DNA from: Prevotella sp.
GTDB taxonomy: Bacteria; Bacteroidota; Bacteroidia; Bacteroidales; Bacteroidaceae
Reading direction: 5' to 3'
Length of the DNA stretch: 63,742 nucleotides
Assembly (NCBI GenBank): GCA_017471245.1
Contig: JAFUVB010000100.1
Coordinates: 1 to 63,742 of the forward strand
Position 1 is the first letter of the stretch; every line of letters begins with the position of its first letter. The notes under the pieces were generated by a model. It searched no databases and was not told the DNA's origin. It saw only the letters and a program-made list of their open reading frames with translations. Shown here piece after piece: positions 10,632 through 63,672 of this stretch. The position numbers and the translations under genes were made by a program.

Positions 10632-10850
10632 AAGAAAATCTGTTTACTCGGCCGCAATTCCATATTTTTCAAAAGACCTTTATATGCCTTATTATCAAGA
10701 GGTTGCAGCTCCTGTGATTTAAGAATTTCGAGTTCGCGAAAGTTTCTGCGCCAAAAACTGCGAGTTTTCATTGCAAAAACAGGCAGTTTCCAATTCAAAA
10801 AGCCGCTGTTTTTGAAATAAACACTGCGAGTAACTCATGCAGTCACTTTG
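10632..10850. repeat. 219-bp interspersed repeat, copy A
   Basis: Aligns over its full length with copy B at 21281-21499 in the same orientation, at clearly high identity by eye. It holds short hairpins (for example AAAACTGCGAGTTTT). On the minus strand it also has a 47-codon ORF (10771 to 10628) starting MKTRSFWRRNFRELEI. Together with copy B it brackets uptake locus 1. The remaining intergenic sequence up to 10990 shows only a short A6CGT6 palindrome near 10940. Confidence 0.85.
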
Positions 10851-21509: not shown

Positions 21510-21763
21510 GTTTTTTAGAGGCAAGAAGCAAGTTTTTAGTAGATTAGAGGTGAGGGGTGAGAGGATTAGAGATTTCTTTAGTATATTAGAAGTCAGAGGT
21601 GAGAGGTGAGAGAATAGAACTATGATATAGGCATGAGAATAGAGCTCTGTATCTCAGTGCATATCTCTAATATACTCACCTCTCACCTCTAATATACTAA
21701 AAGCTCATCCTCTCATCCTCTAAATACTCTCCTCCACTTCTAAAAATAATTAAATTAATTGTG
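21510..21763. repeat. Purine-arm/core/pyrimidine-arm element, copy 1
   Basis: A left arm of GA-rich units (GAGGTGAGAG type) is followed by a 58-bp core (21610-21667), a right arm of the complementary CT-rich units, and a 54-bp right flank (21710-21763) identical to that of the copy at 29778. Relative to that copy, arms and flanks keep their orientation but the core is reverse-complemented (about 5 differences in 58). It lies just beyond the 3' end of sigma factor 2. Confidence 0.85.
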
Positions 21764-30693: not shown

Positions 30694-31767
30694 ATGAAGA
30701 ATGAGGAATTAGACATATTGGATGCCGACGGCTTGGAGCAGCAGCTGCCATCTGATCATGAAGCACTGACCATCAAGCGCGCGCTCCGGCGCAAGCATAT
30801 CCCTTCGCCGGATGTAGATCAGGAATGGGAGTTATTTGCCGCCTCGCATGCCGCATCCTCACACCCCGCCAGTCAAAGAAAAGCACACATCGTTGGGTTC
30901 CTGCTCGGTGTGGCTGCCACCATTGCCGCCATGCTGGTGGTCTATCCCTTCGTGAAGTCTTCGCTCGTTGAGCAGTCGCCTTACGAGGGGGTGCAGATAT
31001 TCAGTGCCAACGATAATCCCACAGAGGTGATGCTGGCACAGAACGAAGACAAGCCGGAAGCCGTGAAAGACAACACCCTGGTGTTCGGCAAGGCGGCTGA
31101 GCAGACATCCGAGAGTGTAAAGGCAAAGATGCTCACCCTCACCACTCCCCGCGGCAAAGACTATCACCTGACACTCGCCGACGGCACCAAGGTATGGATG
31201 AACGCCGAGAGCAAACTGGAGTTTCCGGAAACATTCAAGGGCAATACCCGCGAGGTGATCCTCCACGGTGAAGCCTATTTCGAAGTGGCAAAGGATGCCA
31301 AGCATCCGTTCATCGTGAAGACCGACTACTTTCAGACCCGAGTGCTCGGCACATCGTTTAATATCCGTGCCTACTCCGAGCGCGATGCCAATGTGGTGCT
31401 TGTAGACGGCAGCGTATCGCTCATGCTCAACAAGAACAACAGCGAGGCCATTACGCTTGCTCCTAACCAGCAGGCCATCCTCAATGCGAAACGCTCAACG
31501 CTGAATATCAAAGAGGTGGACACCTACCCCTATACCCAATGGCGCGACGGATTCTTCTATTTCGACGATACCCCCATGATAGAGATTATGCAGGAGCTGG
31601 GGCGCTGGTATAACGTGAACATCATCTTCGAGGAAGCCAAGTATATGAACACCCACCTCCACTTCGTTGCCGAGCGCAGCCTGCCCCTGTCTGCAATCAT
31701 CAGAAACATCAACGACCTCGGCATCGTGAACGTGGAAATGCAGAAAGACGCCGTTATTGTTAATTAA
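30694..31767 (+). CDS. FecR-like anti-sigma factor (locus 3)
   Basis: Anti-sigma protein of 357 aa. N-terminal cytoplasmic part, one transmembrane helix (IVGFLLGVAATIAAMLVVYPF, about 66-86), then the periplasmic FecR domain (LTTPRGKDYHLTLADGTKVWM, LHGEAYFEVAKDAKHPF, VLGTSFNIRAYSE) and a DUF4974-like C-terminus (FDDTPMIEIMQELGRWYNVNI). Its start follows directly on the 28-bp tandem repeats. Confidence 0.93.
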   Translation: MKNEELDILDADGLEQQLPSDHEALTIKRALRRKHIPSPDVDQEWELFAASHAASSHPASQRKAHIVGFLLGVAATIAAMLVVYPFVKSSLVEQSPYEGVQIFSANDNPTEVMLAQNEDKPEAVKDNTLVFGKAAEQTSESVKAKMLTLTTPRGKDYHLTLADGTKVWMNAESKLEFPETFKGNTREVILHGEAYFEVAKDAKHPFIVKTDYFQTRVLGTSFNIRAYSERDANVVLVDGSVSLMLNKNNSEAITLAPNQQAILNAKRSTLNIKEVDTYPYTQWRDGFFYFDDTPMIEIMQELGRWYNVNIIFEEAKYMNTHLHFVAERSLPLSAIIRNINDLGIVNVEMQKDAVIVN

Positions 31768-31847
31768 TGTTTAATTAGTACCTTGTACCTTCTTTCTTGT
31801 GTACTATAGTTAGAATTATCATTTATTAACTATTAACACCAAGAATC

Positions 31848-34800
31848 ATGAAGAAAGAAAAGGCTCTGTTTGCATGCCTTTGTTTCGCCTTGTTGCTTCT
31901 GACGGCTCCCGCCCATGCACAGGACAAGGGAAACAAAGTGACATTGTCGTGTAAAGACACGCCACTGCCCGCTGCCCTGAGAAGCGTGGAACAACAGTCG
32001 GGCTATTACAAAATCAACTACAACCAAGACGATGCCCGCAGGTACAAGGTTACCGCCAACATCAAGGATGCTTCCGCCGAAGATGCCGTCAAGCGAATCA
32101 TCAGCGGACTGCCTTTCGCTGTTTCAGTGAAAGACCGCTACATCCAAATCCGCCGCACACAGCAGCTGGCAGATGCTCCTGCCAAGAAGAACACGGTGCA
32201 CGGTAAGATCTACGACGCACAGGGCGAGCCTCTGATAGGTGTGACCGTGCAGGTGGAGGGAACCAACAAGGGAACCGTGACCGACTACGACGGCAACTTC
32301 GCGCTTGAAGGAGTGAGTGAGGGCGAACTCATCACCTATTCTTATATAGGCAAGCAGTCGCTCAAGCGCAAGGCTTCCTATAAACCCGTGGTGATTATCT
32401 TGGAAGATGAGTCGTTCATGGTTGACGATGTGGTGGTGACTGGTTATCAGACCATCTCGAAGGAACGCACGACAGGCGCCTTTAACAAGATTGATGCCAA
32501 TACCCTTAACGAGCGCCCCACATCCGACCTGTCTTCTGCCTTACAAGGATTGGTGGCAGGTATGCAGGCAACAGAAAATGAAGACGGAAGCGTCGCATTC
32601 AGGATACGCGGACAAAGCACACTCTATGCCGATGCCAGTCCGCTGGTGGTTGTTGACGGATTCCCCATCGAGGGCGATTTCTCAAGTATCAACCCTAACG
32701 ACGTGGAAAGTGTCACTATACTTAAAGATGCGTCTGCCGCCTCTATCTGGGGAGCGCGCTCTGCCAACGGTGTGATTGTGGTTACGACCAAGAAAGCACA
32801 TGACAAGAAACTGACCATTGGAGGAAAAGCATTTTGGCGCATACAGACCAATCCAGACCTTGACTACATACTCAATCAGGCAGACAGCAGGTCGACAGTT
32901 GACTATGAGATACGTGCCATGGAAAACGGATGGGATATGGGAAGTTCATACGCACCAAGTGTCAGCAACCTTTACGGCACACCACTCTCATTGGCACAAC
33001 AGTATTATTTTTCCAACAAATATTACGGAATGTCTGAGGCTGAGATGAAGGCTGGTCTTGAGGCTCTCCGAAACACGAGCAACCGGCAACAGCTGAAAGA
33101 CTACCTGATGCAGACTGCCTTGCTGCAACAGTACAACGTGAGTGTTTCAGGGGGAAGCGACAAGATCTCCAACTATCTTTCTTTGATGTATGAAAAGAAC
33201 GACGAAAGAACCATCAAGCGCGGATACAACCGTTTTATGTTGAACTACAACAACGAGTACCGCATCAACAACATATTCACAGCCTCAGCTGCTGCTACCT
33301 TACAGAAGCGCTCACAGGATTTCTCCGGAGTGACACTGCAGGAATTTACCAATCTGTCACCATACGAGCTCCTGCTGAACAGCGACGGCAGCTATGTTGA
33401 TCAGGCATACGAATATAATAACTTTGAACTTGATAAGATTGACCGCTCATCGTTCCCTTACGAGAATTTCCGCTATAATATGTTACAAGAGGTAAGGAAC
33501 AGGGCGTATAAGACCACGACATCAAACTATCGGGTACAGCTGGGACTCAACGCAAAGATTCTCAAAGGACTGACATACGACATTAAGTATCAGTATGAGC
33601 GACATGAGTATGACACCAATCAATACGATAATGAGGAGACATACTATACCCGTGGTTTGGTTAACTTCTTCAGCACTTTCGACACTTCCAGTTTAAAGGC
33701 AACCAAGAGCTATCTGCCGACAGGTGGAATCAAACGCTCAAGCAGTTCCGTAAACTACAACGACGTGCTGCGTAATCAATTGAGCTACGACCAGATTTTC
33801 GGTAAACACGACATCACTGCCATCGCCGGTATTGAAATGAGTCGGTATGTGATACGGGAAACTATCTATCCTACGGTTTACGGATACTCTGAAACAACCA
33901 ATACTTCAGTGATTCCTTATTACGGACAGAGCGATAACATTGGCAATATTGTAAACTATTCCGCTAATAACGCTACTTACTTCAACTCACTTGCCACTAC
34001 CTATGCCGACCGTGAGGATCGTTATATTTCTTACTATGGCAATGCGGCATACATGTATGATGAACGCTATGGCGCCACCTTCAGCATTCGCTCTGACGGT
34101 TCGAACTTCGTTTCAAAAAATACCTCTCTGCGCTGGTCGCCGATGTGGTCGGTAGGATTAAAATGGAATGCGCACAAGGAGTCTTTTCTGAAATCGGCAG
34201 AATGGATTAACCGACTGAGTCTGCGTGCCACATACGGATTGAACGGAAACGCCGAAAAGTCAACCTCCACGGAGACCTTGATCAGTGCCTCGACAAGCTC
34301 CGTCACTCATGGCACAGTAGCCAGCGTGGTTAGTTATGGCAATCCGCTGTTAAAATGGGAGCGGACAAAGACATTCAATGTGGGTGTCGACTTCTCCTTC
34401 TTCCGTAATGTTCTCAGCGGAAAGGTGGATGTATACAACCGCAAGTCATTCGATGTCATCGGAAACGTGGTCATCCCGAGTGTTTATGGTACTTCCTCGC
34501 AGCGGTTCAACAATGCGGAAATATCCAACAAGGGTATAGAGACAGAATTGACCGGTAATTTCAAGATTCCATCCCTTGGATTAGGAATCAAGTCAACCGT
34601 GACATATTCATATAACAAAAACAAGATTGAGAAGCTCTACAACCCGTCCTTATACAGTTATCAATTGGTTTTGCCGACAACATTCGTAGAGGGTCGGTCA
34701 ATCGGCGGTATCTACTCGTATGAGTTTGCTGAAACGGTTGATGGCGTACCCTATGTGAAGGGTGTTAACGGAGAACCTTCATCCATGAACGTTCTGACAC

Positions 34801-43326: not shown

Positions 43327-43400
43327 GACTCTGTTTGCCCTTATTACGCAAGATAACGCATTTTGTGACAAGAAAAATATATTTTTTTCTGATTTTTTTG

Positions 43401-43408
43401 TAATTTTG
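43401..43408 (+). promoter_or_regulatory. -7 promoter box of the Fur-family gene
   Basis: TAATTTTG matches TAnnTTTG, 20 bp upstream of ATG 43429. Confidence 0.7.
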
Positions 43409-43428
43409 CCGAAGTAAAAACAAAGGTT

Positions 43429-46683: not shown

Positions 46684-46768
46684 CGTGTCTCTCATTTCTA
46701 AAATGCTCACCTCTAATATTCTCACCTCTTACCCCTAATATACTCACCTCTAAAATACTCATCAAAAA
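46684..46768 (-). repeat. CT-rich tract of the heptad-repeat family between the transketolase subunits
   Basis: Units such as CTCACCTCTAATA and ACTCACCTCTAAAATACTCATC; the complementary strand has the GAGGTGAG units seen at 1-157 and 21.5 kb. It separates two genes that should be coupled and leaves no Shine-Dalgarno for the second. Confidence 0.8.
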
Positions 46769-54913: not shown

Positions 54914-55186
54914 AATGTCACTTTTTGCCGCATTTGTCTGATTATAAACAAGTTATATATGGTGACATTGAATCAATCAATGTCACTTTCACCACTTCTG
55001 CATATTATTCAAAAGTAAAACAACTTGTTTTACCTTCCCAAAACGATGCTTTCATTCTCTACTAACGGCATTCCATAAACTAAAACAACTTGTTTCACTC
55101 CCACAAAAACGAAGTGACATTGATTGTTTTAATGTCACTCAATCTATCACACTGTATATCAGCGACTTGGAATAAAAAGTGACATT
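54914..55186. repeat. Cluster of GTGACATT and AACAACTTGTT inverted repeats
   Basis: GTGACATT or its complement occurs at 54914, 54962, 54979, 55114, 55131 and 55179. Two pairs form 25-bp inverted repeats of equal length (54962-54986 and 55114-55138). AACAACTTGTT-type palindromes alternate with them near 54947, 55015-55033 and 55083. No ORF in 54662-55313; this is the main content of that gap. Confidence 0.75.
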
Positions 55187-61315: not shown

Positions 61316-62044
61316 TTATTGACAGGTTATGGTTTTATGACTACGTCCAAATGTCCTTAAATAAATCAACGGCACCTCATGGGCATATTCTGTCAATTCA
61401 ATGCCTTTTTTCCTATATACATCATAAACATATATTTTGCTGTTCTTTATATAGTAAAACGTGTTACCTAAACCCGTATATATGAGCAAGGCTTGCGGTT
61501 TGAATGAGTTAAGTGCAGACACAACGTCTTTATCATTTTCAAGCGCCTTCTTGGCTCTTCTCTTGCTTCCTCCAATAAGTGTAAACTCTTCTACTCTTGT
61601 GTAACGACCTAAATAGTCATAATTTACATACCCTTTCACTTTACCGTTATCATCCATGCAGGCAATAACGAAAGGGCTTAATGTGTCAATGACAATATGA
61701 TCATATATGTCGTCAGAGCGGCTGAAGTTTTCCATGTCCTTAAATGAAATACTAAGCAAGAACTGCTTCTTCTCCTTCTTTAAATCCAGATGACTTGCCT
61801 TATGATATGGCTCCATTCCATTCTTTATGGCATATCCATCAATAAAGAAAGAGTCCGGCCATGTGGTCATAAACGAGTCTTCAACCCACTTGTCATATTC
61901 ATCAATCTGCTTTTGACACATTTCCTCATAATACCCCAAATCTGCATTATTGTAGAAATCTAAGATTTCATTTACTATCGCCTTGTCTTGGGCATATATA
62001 TTTTGGAATGACACGACTACTATTGCTATAATTAAATATTTCAT
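61316..62044 (-). CDS. Hypothetical exported protein, paralogue of the 60378 gene
   Basis: 242 aa from ATG 62044 (MKYLIIAIVVVSFQNIYAQ), a good signal peptide; ATG 62050 is possible. The frame stays open to 62158 only because it crosses REP-like repeats. Homologous to its downstream neighbour across the N-terminal two thirds; function unknown. A probable promoter at 62302 would give a leader of about 250 nt holding four REP-like motifs. The pair looks like a tandem duplication that has since diverged strongly. Confidence 0.65.
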   Translation of the reverse strand: MKYLIIAIVVVSFQNIYAQDKAIVNEILDFYNNADLGYYEEMCQKQIDEYDKWVEDSFMTTWPDSFFIDGYAIKNGMEPYHKASHLDLKKEKKQFLLSISFKDMENFSRSDDIYDHIVIDTLSPFVIACMDDNGKVKGYVNYDYLGRYTRVEEFTLIGGSKRRAKKALENDKDVVSALNSFKPQALLIYTGLGNTFYYIKNSKIYVYDVYRKKGIELTEYAHEVPLIYLRTFGRSHKTITCQ

Positions 62045-62087
62045 ATACATAAGAAACTTTTGGAAGAGTTGAATATTTTCTATTTGT

Positions 62088-62176
62088 GACCAGGGGACTC
62101 TGAATTGACCAGGGGACGGAATTGACCAGGGGACGGTTCTGTGATCATAATTGACCATGGGACGGTTCTGTGATCA
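62088..62176 (+). repeat. Four tandem REP-like motifs
   Basis: GACCAGGGGAC copies start at 62088, 62107, 62124 and 62153. The last two are complete (GACCAKGGGACGGTTCTG then TGATCA). The first two are cut short and joined by GAATT/AATT spacers. Confidence 0.8.
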
Positions 62177-62301
62177 TTTTGTCTTTATGAACAAATCCAA
62201 ATGAAACGCCTGCAAGCATTGACGGATTGCAGATTTCCGCTTTTCTTTTTATTGTCGCCGTAGTCATACATATATATATTAGTCATATTGTTTTTCGATG
62301 A

Positions 62302-62309
62302 CAAAGATA
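62302..62309 (-). promoter_or_regulatory. -7 promoter box for the 62044 gene
   Basis: TATCTTTG on the minus strand matches TAnnTTTG. A degenerate REP-like motif starts 48 bp upstream (62350). Confidence 0.55.
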
Positions 62310-62483
62310 ATAACTCTTTCGCAAATAAGCAAATAATACCCGATTAAAATGATCAATATAACCGATCCCGTGATTCTAAAGCGAGCGGAATGCGAAAGGA
62401 AAACTATTTTTTCTTTCTCGAAAACGGCACTTTTCAAGCGCGAGAGCGGCACTTTGGAGCCTTGAAAACGCAGAGATGGAAAA

Positions 62484-62571
62484 GTAAATCAATTTAATTT
62501 GCTGAGTAAATCAAATTGATTTGAAAAACAATTCATATTGATTTGCAAGGTAAATCAATTTGATTTGCTGG
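62484..62571. repeat. Palindrome array 1: four 22-bp units of GTAAATCAAtTTGATTTG type
   Basis: Units start at 62484, 62506, 62528 and 62550 with an exact 22-bp period. The core AAATCAATTTGATTT is self-complementary in the best unit; the others vary slightly. About 55 bp before the array (GGCACTTTGGAGCC, GAGATGGAAAA) are repeated before array 2. Confidence 0.9.
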
Positions 62572-62681
62572 GGCAGGACGCTGTTTTGGAGCGAGAAAAA
62601 TGGCGAATTATTGCGATGAAATCGGCGATTTTTAAGCAAGAGGGCGGCACTTTGGAGCCTCGGAAACGCTGAGATGGAAAA

Positions 62682-62769
62682 GTAAATTAAATTAATTTGC
62701 TGAGTAAATTAAATTAAATTGAAAAGTAAACTAAATTAATTTGCGCGGTAAATTAAATTAATTTGCCGA
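62682..62769. repeat. Palindrome array 2: four 22-bp units of GTAAATTAAaTTAATTTG type
   Basis: Units start at 62682, 62704, 62726 and 62748, exactly 198 bp after those of array 1. Compared with array 1, C-to-T changes in left half-sites are matched by G-to-A changes in right half-sites, so palindromy is kept. It lies about 190 bp upstream of the barrel gene. Apart from these arrays and the promoter boxes, 62177-62955 contains no gene. Confidence 0.9.
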
Positions 62770-62898
62770 AGCGGGGCTGCGAGAAAGAGGGCGGAAATAT
62801 GGCAGATGGATGATGGAAAGCGCCGTTAAACATGCGCAAATAGGGTTTTTCCTTTTCGAATTAGGGAAAAATCCCTTGACGGATTGTTGGAAAATCAC

Positions 62899-62906
62899 TT
62901 TCTTTG
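62899..62906 (+). promoter_or_regulatory. Near-consensus -7 box of the barrel gene
   Basis: TTTCTTTG differs from TAnnTTTG at one base; 49 bp upstream of ATG 62956, with TTGAC at 62875 upstream. Confidence 0.45.
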
Positions 62907-62955
62907 CAGCAGAGAACATGCAAAAGTATTATTCACTTTTTAAAAACAGAAGGAT

Positions 62956-63672
62956 ATGAAAAAGTATTTATTGATGGCAATCTTCGGCATCCTTGCCGTT
63001 CTGCCCACTGATGCACAAGTATACCGCAACAGCCGCTACTACAATCCCGGCAGCGGCAGGTTGGACTATAGCAGGAACCACCGCACGACAAGGGCTCCGC
63101 GACATGGCAGCTACTGGTATGACGAAGACTCTTATTTCGGCTTTCGTGTAGGTCCTGCGTTCACCACGGTGAGCAGCGACGATCCCTATTTGGACGGCAG
63201 CAGCATGAAGACAGGACTGAATATAGGTATGGCTGCCGGCTTTGCCGTGGCTCCGCGCGCCCCGTTGTTCTTCGAGACAGGCCTATACTACACGGAAAAA
63301 GGCGGCAAGGCTAAGGGAAACCATGTGAACTTCACATACAACCTTGACTACTTGGAGGTGCCGTTAGTGTTCAAATACAAGTATGCCATCGACCGCGACG
63401 TGACGGTGGAGCCGTTCCTCGGCGGATACCTTGCCTGCGGTGTGGGCGGCAAGATCAAGGATTTCGGTGAACGGGCGGCCTACAGCTCATTCTCCGACAA
63501 TCCCTATTCATTCCAGCGTTTCGACGGCGGTCTGCGGTTGGGATGCGGCATGTCGTACGACATCTTCTATGCCGATCTCACCTACGACTTAGGACTGGCG
63601 AACATCTGTCACGATGATTTCGACACGAGCAAGAATCAGGCACTGATGCTTACGGTGGGGTTGAACTTTTAG
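62956..63672 (+). CDS. Outer-membrane beta-barrel protein (PorT-like/OMP_b-brl family)
   Basis: 238 aa: signal peptide to about residue 20 (AVLPTDAQ), a short arginine/tyrosine-rich segment (YRNSRYYNPGSGRLDYSRNH), then an eight-strand-type barrel (FGFRVGPAFTTVSSDD, LNIGMAAGFAVAPRAPLFFETGLYYTEKGG, LDYLEVPLVFKYKYA, VEPFLGGYLACGVGGKI, FDGGLRLGCGMSYDIFYADL) ending in LTVGLNF, an outer-membrane C-terminal pattern. No enzymatic role seen. The palindrome arrays upstream probably regulate it. Confidence 0.85.
   Translation: MKKYLLMAIFGILAVLPTDAQVYRNSRYYNPGSGRLDYSRNHRTTRAPRHGSYWYDEDSYFGFRVGPAFTTVSSDDPYLDGSSMKTGLNIGMAAGFAVAPRAPLFFETGLYYTEKGGKAKGNHVNFTYNLDYLEVPLVFKYKYAIDRDVTVEPFLGGYLACGVGGKIKDFGERAAYSSFSDNPYSFQRFDGGLRLGCGMSYDIFYADLTYDLGLANICHDDFDTSKNQALMLTVGLNF

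Follow-up and report, generated by a model that had tools for sequence, protein, structure and literature searches.

The nearest described element to the arrays considered here is BrickBuilt of Porphyromonas gingivalis, a set of 23-nt intergenic tandem arrays at 19 loci for which bidirectional promoter activity has been reported (PMC4596501). BrickBuilt elements reach up to 22.8 units and possess a leader and a tail with inverted-repeat ends; the shortest, BrickBuilt_14 (84 nt; Table 1 of that paper), lies between PGN_0871 (-) and PGN_0872 (+), the latter annotated as ‘DNA-binding protein (PF00216)’, which by position puts the element upstream of an HU-type gene (PMC4596501). A binding protein is not proposed in the abstract or section 5 of that paper (PMC4596501). 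The Prevotella arrays resemble BrickBuilt in being intergenic tandem arrays dispersed in a Bacteroidales genome and differ in their unit, 22 bp as against 23 nt, the two being compared by description only. REP/BIME elements, which go with a RAYT transposase, are likewise dispersed intergenic palindromes forming a mosaic of two motif types, but the Prevotella arrays differ from them in a regular 22-bp register and in palindromes that are private to a species. Noc, SlmA, and MatP each have tens of dispersed palindromic sites per genome for one protein; their sites, however, are single or few, conserved in sequence, and also found within genes. Finally, the sequence specificity of HU proteins is known to be weak for the most part. 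HU/IHF dimers introduce two kinks 9 bp apart, the same distance that separates the half-site centres in the present arrays, and the IHF consensus, WATCAR, resembles AATCAA. However, we know of no HU target that consists of palindrome arrays with co-changing, species-specific halves, and literature searches on HU-HIG, on Prevotella palindromic or tandem repeats, and on HU arrays returned no description of such a system.

The window, which is the whole stretch of 63,742 nucleotides of Prevotella DNA analysed, was initially annotated as holding two arrays of four 22-bp units, offset by 198 bp, ahead of an outer-membrane barrel gene (see Table), and this anatomy was borne out. Core starts map to 62486, 62508, 62530, and 62552 in array 1 and to 62684, 62706, 62728, and 62750 in array 2, such that the unit step is 22 bp, the offset is 9 x 22 bp, and 132 bp (6 x 22) separate the last core start of array 1 from the first of array 2. 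A unit generally consists of AAATYA-N3-TRATTT and a linker of 7 bp, which in the middle of the array is mainly GAAAAGT; the palindrome of the unit comprises 15 bp, with two 6-bp half-sites around a 3-bp centre. The two half-site types that had been noted both exist, as C-type (AAATCA..TGATTT) in array 1 and T-type (AAATTA..TAATTT) in array 2. Array 1 is non-uniform, as its unit 1, AAATCAATTTAATTT, is a hybrid with C in the left half and A in the right, and its unit 3 reads AATTCATATTGATTT; irregularities of array 2 include the ending AAATT of unit 2 and the start AAACT of unit 3. Both arrays are embedded in a 158-nt direct repeat (62420-62577 and 62618-62775; 80% identity). The pattern GTAAATYAANTTRATTTGC has 15 matches in the window on both strands with up to three mismatches, 13 of them within the arrays, as against a mean of 0.29 in shuffled sequence, where none of 100 shuffles reached 15. 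A sequence-blind search of the 63.7 kb for at least three palindromes at a constant step of 12-45 bp found a single array, array 2, array 1 being too imperfect for this rule. A CRISPR array, in which unique spacers split the repeats, does not describe the locus, as the 22-bp units are contiguous and the 7-bp linkers recur.

Table. Coordinates of the arrays, their surroundings, and the related HU-HIG loci (window positions unless a contig of the own genome, G000, is named)
Feature	Position	Strand	Description
Array 1	62484..62568	+	Four 22-bp units, C-type; unit types CA, CG, CG, CG
Array 2	62682..62766	+	Four 22-bp units, T-type; unit types TA x4
22-bp-phased, GC-richer flank of array 1	62420..62483	+	GAAAANGGCNNTTTTC-like units; direct repeat, duplicated before array 2; lag-22 signal
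Inter-array spacer	62569..62681	+	In 22-bp register; contains the duplicated flank, 62618-62681
Outer-membrane beta-barrel gene	62956..63672	+	Pfam matches PF13568, PF13505
Divergent neighbour ORF	61316..62158	-	Without Pfam match
Promoter-like TTCTTTG, upstream of barrel gene	62900..62906	+	Read from sequence; aligned and conserved in UBA4268 (L205)
Palindrome pair (G/C)TAAAACAACTTGTTT(T/C)AC, 65 bp apart	55015..55098	.	Site type of the second HU-HIG paralog's promoter (G000:C7)
HU-HIG gene	G000:C6:25479-25859		Four-unit T-type array in own promoter
HU-HIG paralog	G000:C7:433-828		AAAACAAnTTGTTTT sites

These arrays are members of a dispersed family. In G000, matches to the unit pattern number 454 over the two strands as against 21 for a reversed control, and the array model places arrays at no fewer than 54 places in at least 45 clusters, the 54 having been obtained by merging 120 listed rows (both strands) by hand. 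At least 50 intergenic arrays have three units or more, and 42 of these 50 have exactly four. By the same rule, at least 70 arrays exist in Prevotella sp. UBA4268 (G422), a MAG and close relative whose long coding matches are mostly 76-88% identical; chains of fewer than three units were dropped from both counts, which are lower bounds, as only 150 of 1290 first-look candidates in G000 and 150 of 1142 in UBA4268 were scored. In the latter, 75 places were typed, two short ones being left out. Among 84,980 species genomes, an exact two-unit pattern was found in 26 stretches, 25 from UBA4268 and one from RUG037, an uncultured Prevotellaceae. Palindromy beyond what array composition provides was significant in G000 (P 0.004) and not significant in UBA4268 (P 0.28). 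No array place of G000 lies inside a called ORF, a few overlapping an ORF end by at most 17 bp, and the genes around the clusters are convergent in 13 cases, divergent in 9, tandem in 15, and undetermined at contig ends in 8. With respect to flanking ORFs, arrays are 5' of 142 and 3' of 155; a promoter role is thus not general, and an architectural or boundary role may be as likely as promoter control. Of 36 gaps with an array, 11 are convergent, compared with 16 among 130 other neighbouring ORF pairs (P 0.02); this bias was lost against array-free gaps of at least 200 bp (6 of 31; P 0.40), and a preference for convergent genes, as for a terminator, was set aside as weak.

Similar arrays are spread through the genus. 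The array model scored in 9 genomes among 60 relatives, the own genome included, and at a stricter cut-off in 36 of 398 genus genomes. Other species carry other palindromes at the same 22-bp step (AAATTCACTGAATTT, AAAATAGCCTATTTT, AAAACAAATTGTTTT, AAAATAAATTATTTT, and more), and in many of them the palindrome is kept while its letters change completely. In unbiased 400-kb samples searched over periods 13-44, 22 was the commonest period, shared by five of the 12 tandem arrays of G015 and by four of the five of G023, and 362 kb from three other genera contained no 22-bp array. Several of the 22-bp arrays in G015 and G023 are non-palindromic, such that a lack of palindromy in relatives, named earlier as grounds for refuting the paired-change proposal, is seen only in part. 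The earlier proposal that palindromes kept at a constant 22-bp step are dimer sites stacked every two turns is supported, and such sites may well be what the units represent.

The protein for which such sites may exist was suggested by their neighbours. Clustering of array-flanking genes revealed, unasked, an HU-like family beside arrays in six species, with the array 31-85 bp upstream. The two proteins scanned, from G000 contig C6 and from G034, score 74.5 and 85.6 bits, respectively, against HU-HIG (PF18291; gathering cut-off 26.2). A survey found matches in 45 of 80 genomes, and upstream regions were read for 55 loci (the 30 best hits, 4 met earlier, 20 lower-ranked, and G439). A lag-22 array (at least 0.7) is present within 350 bp upstream at 14 of the 30 best-hit loci, whereas any single other period from 14 to 40 occurs in at most one of 30. 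In a tree of 53 proteins, identical ones among the 55 having been dropped, 30 HU-HIG proteins form a clade with support 100/97. Delimited on a tree drawn with the array label known, this clade has, at 26 of 30 genes, an array or a perfect palindrome in the 350 bp upstream, and at none downstream; among 25 other HU genes, 3 have one upstream and 2 have one downstream (clade versus others upstream, P 1.9e-8). The four exceptions to this preset rule are L291 and L289, which by eye or with a wider gap have one palindrome and two units, respectively, L277, with an array 1.3 kb upstream, and L293, with nothing. Paralogs of the clade have differing palindromes within each of G027, G067, G026, G031, and G000, while b-type orthologs share them (G027 with G067; G031 with G000, G024, and G080), which indicates that the sites follow the protein and not the species. 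Protein and site distances are correlated: when a script chose the sites, the Mantel r was 0.24, and it was 0.34 once other sites had been substituted for two poor choices, L328 and L329 (P 0.0002 in both cases). Further, palindromes taken solely from HU promoters in G092 and G067 predicted sites throughout those genomes, with 110 + 160 and 28 + 30 matches, respectively, the promoter's own units included, and none for controls. This HU type is rarely met beyond the genus (2 of 149 genomes of the order, own included); the second case, G439, has a palindromic array of 22-bp step lying immediately 3' of its HU gene, the only one in 400 kb sampled. A phmmer search against solved structures with E up to 1 gave three HU chains as weak matches (E 0.34-0.84), and no beta-arm specificity residues were singled out in the clade alignment. 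In G023, HU-HIG has eight matches with E no higher than 1e-12, several nearly identical, and the five promoters read among them (L295, L331, L332, L334, and L335) lack a 22-bp array; these copies are possibly an amplified mobile family.

That palindromes varying between species recur in the promoters of a fast-evolving HU-like family suggests a protein and DNA system in co-evolution, and a model can be drawn in which the binder is the HU-HIG protein of the PF18291 clade, represented here by the C6 protein and its C7 paralog. In this model, each 15-bp palindrome would accommodate one dimer, and the 22-bp step would align four dimers on one DNA face as a compact complex, such that an array serves as a high-density platform. 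The protein would regulate its own promoter through the array located there and would occupy tens of intergenic arrays genome-wide, possibly as a local architectural or regulatory complex. Protein and sites would change together, giving each species its own palindromes, while copying or conversion may keep the arrays within a genome alike. The mostly weak sequence specificity of HU proteins weighs against it; judged from sequence, we consider this model moderately probable. If true, it would provide dozens of natural protein/site pairs for understanding how HU/IHF-type proteins gain sequence specificity, along with a case of a bacterial chromosomal protein and its genome-wide sites changing together species by species. 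It would further hint at the kind of binder that may serve the BrickBuilt repeats of P. gingivalis, and furnish genus-specific regulatory landmarks for Prevotella, which is abundant in gut and rumen and for which few tools exist.

How the arrays of one genome come to be alike can be followed at the present locus. Array 2 had been thought to derive from array 1-like units by in-place compensatory mutation of both half-sites. The paired C-to-T / G-to-A difference itself stands for units 2, 3, and 4 of the four aligned pairs and fails for unit 1, which differs on one side only. The route proposed for it is not supported, as a second T array within G000, C62:23272, lies nearer to array 2 (distance 0.049) than does the array at the UBA4268 ortholog of the barrel gene (0.16; rank 34 of 53), a single mixed array (CA CG CA CG) in the place of array 2. 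The nearest relative of array 1 is C73:880 (0.062), the UBA4268 array ranking third of 53 at 0.148. Across 95 arrays with exactly four units, the mean distance between orthologous arrays (16 pairings, with arrays that face a double locus entered twice) was 0.204 as against 0.195 for random cross-species pairs, and for 82 of the 95 the nearest neighbour was in the same species, where about 48 would be expected. Since orthologs are no closer than random pairs and nearest relatives are conspecific, the arrays evolve in concert by copying or conversion; array replacement would account for the paired change better than would point mutations arising in pairs, and half-site symmetry is, on these comparisons, a property of the family. 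About 20 array positions are common to G000 and UBA4268; they were sought only in G000 stretches chosen for carrying arrays, and were matched manually through the neighbouring genes, in some cases on a single side. The window, a stretch not so chosen, holds the counterpart of one UBA4268 array, that at the barrel-gene locus. Three further UBA4268 arrays with both flanks matched, L192, L253, and, more weakly, L231, have none at the corresponding sites (near 43392-43416, 2496-2521, and 31634-31927, respectively), and neither does L215, with one flank matched. Arrays have evidently been gained or lost between the two species.

These observations could alternatively reflect a dispersed, non-autonomous MITE- or BIME-like mosaic repeat that spreads by transposition or recombination, its palindromes serving some transposase or none and its link to HU genes being a side effect. 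Such a repeat would account for copies that share flanks and subfamilies, for concerted evolution, and for the three UBA4268 arrays absent from matched window sites. In addition, BrickBuilt, the similar intergenic 23-nt repeat of P. gingivalis, has been assigned to the MITEs (PMC4596501). However, the one empty site read by eye has no clear target duplication, although the two species have diverged, and the positions shared with UBA4268, sought only where G000 has arrays, speak against a mobile repeat, as does the survival of palindromes whose letters change between species. The sole RAYT-type transposase gene found has other palindromes and no 22-bp array in about 1.1 kb of printed flanks, with none among the arrays listed on its contig, and identity with REP/RAYT was rejected on the difference between those palindromes and the arrays. 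Viral_contigs, phages, and plasmids contain no match for the arrays, and the two HU proteins searched have no relative in viral_contigs, such that a phage or plasmid origin was set aside. A mobile repeat is accordingly regarded as unlikely, if still to be taken seriously, beside the binding of HU-HIG dimers.

Selection might instead act on intrinsic DNA bending, with A/T tracts about 11 bp apart and the letters between them free. In most of the species read, A/T does occupy the outer positions, and the 22-bp phase runs on beyond the arrays: with the arrays masked at 34 own-genome loci, flanks and spacers have their top lag at 22 (match 0.313 versus a mean of 0.268). However, units of one genome closely resemble each other in their inner letters, which are palindromic, GC cores such as AATATGGCCCATATT and AAACCTGGCAGGATT included, and bending by itself appears quite improbable as the selected property. 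The reading that the barrel gene is controlled by a single classical regulator, with the arrays as operators and array 2 retargeted to another regulator by paired mutation, draws on the array that precedes this gene both here and in UBA4268. Against it, the same arrays recur at 45 or more own-genome clusters, whatever the orientation of the adjoining genes, the closest relative of array 2 is a T array elsewhere in the genome, and 28 of 30 barrel-gene homolog loci lack an upstream 22-bp tandem, one of the two exceptions being the window itself. UBA4268, fetched separately, is a third barrel-gene locus with such a tandem. In this control set, period 21 is found in 3 of 30 upstream regions, such that near-22 tandems also occur elsewhere, a point against the HU link. 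The arrays may have some effect on the barrel gene, but their designation as its operator is largely refuted and scarcely credible.

The C and T types are distributed differently in single and double loci. All eight double loci of G000 (arrays at most 400 bp apart) pair one C-type with one T-type array, their order and orientation varying between loci, although these loci share a C subfamily and do not amount to eight independent events. Homotypic units account for 61 of 64 in doubles as against 82 of 148 in singles (Fisher P 9e-10), and pure C arrays number seven in doubles and none in 34 singles; unit words are partly copy families, one six-unit word, CG CG TA CG TA TA, being common to four loci, and the counts are therefore not independent. 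Core distances between the arrays of a double are a multiple of 22 in five of eight and off by one in three. In UBA4268, both doubles split into C and T, one T array holding one hybrid unit, and the 66 singles include 14 pure T and 2 pure C. Singles thus often mix C and T within a unit where doubles separate them, as if two related subunits were to bind, either as a heterodimer or as two homodimers, and C and T half-sites may represent two specificities. A more far-reaching version of the HU-HIG model, to which we give somewhat less than even credence, would have a genus-wide, rapidly co-evolving system in which the HU-like clade reads species-private palindromes in strict 22-bp arrays and autoregulates, the arrays being rewritten genome-wide, often at shared positions. 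Paralogous subunits would then form a C/T half-site code, with hybrid units for heterodimers in singles and homotypic C and T arrays in doubles. A transcribed hairpin or single-strand DNA element, for which outer T-G / G-T pairs would permit wobble on one strand, is the least credible reading, given that inner hybrids are found in either polarity with respect to the array (31 CA + 37 TG in G000; 67 + 32 in UBA4268), that 61900-63200 has no Rfam match at the gathering threshold, and that AT-rich stems form weak hairpins.

Several other features accompany the arrays. The TTCTTTG upstream of the barrel gene resembles a known promoter type. HU promoters in the subclade of the C7 paralog have a palindrome pair 66 bp apart; in the C7 promoter itself the pair is about 66 bp apart, with the second copy placed by eye, alongside a similar TGACATTGAA..TTCAATGTCA repeat, also read by eye. 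In the window, the GTAAAACAACTTGTTTTAC-type pair is bordered on both sides, by eye, by TGACATT..AATGTCA inverted repeats (54950-55140). A 29-bp tandem repeat, AATTGACCAGGGGACGGTTCTGTGATCAT, lies near the start of the divergent ORF (62087-62177), and a stretch resembling it, GACCAAGGGACGG, occurs at about 55266. AAGAAGC heptamer repeats form both contig ends (1-126 and 63677-63729) and may have broken the assembly. Elsewhere in G000, the RAYT-type Y1 transposase gene (L178; G000:C33:4618-4956) has REP-like palindromes nearby, read by eye as GGCCTGAAAGGCC and CCCAGGGC..GCCCTGGG. At L205 of UBA4268, a non-palindromic 22-bp tandem, AAAACCATAGGAAYGGAGCSTN, abuts the array by eye, as if 22-bp steps duplicate whatever sequence adjoins. 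Short tandems of period 22 and other sequence are also present in the window at 10752-10801, 21665-21713, and 46709-46751, which would be in line with 22 bp as a favoured step of the genus.
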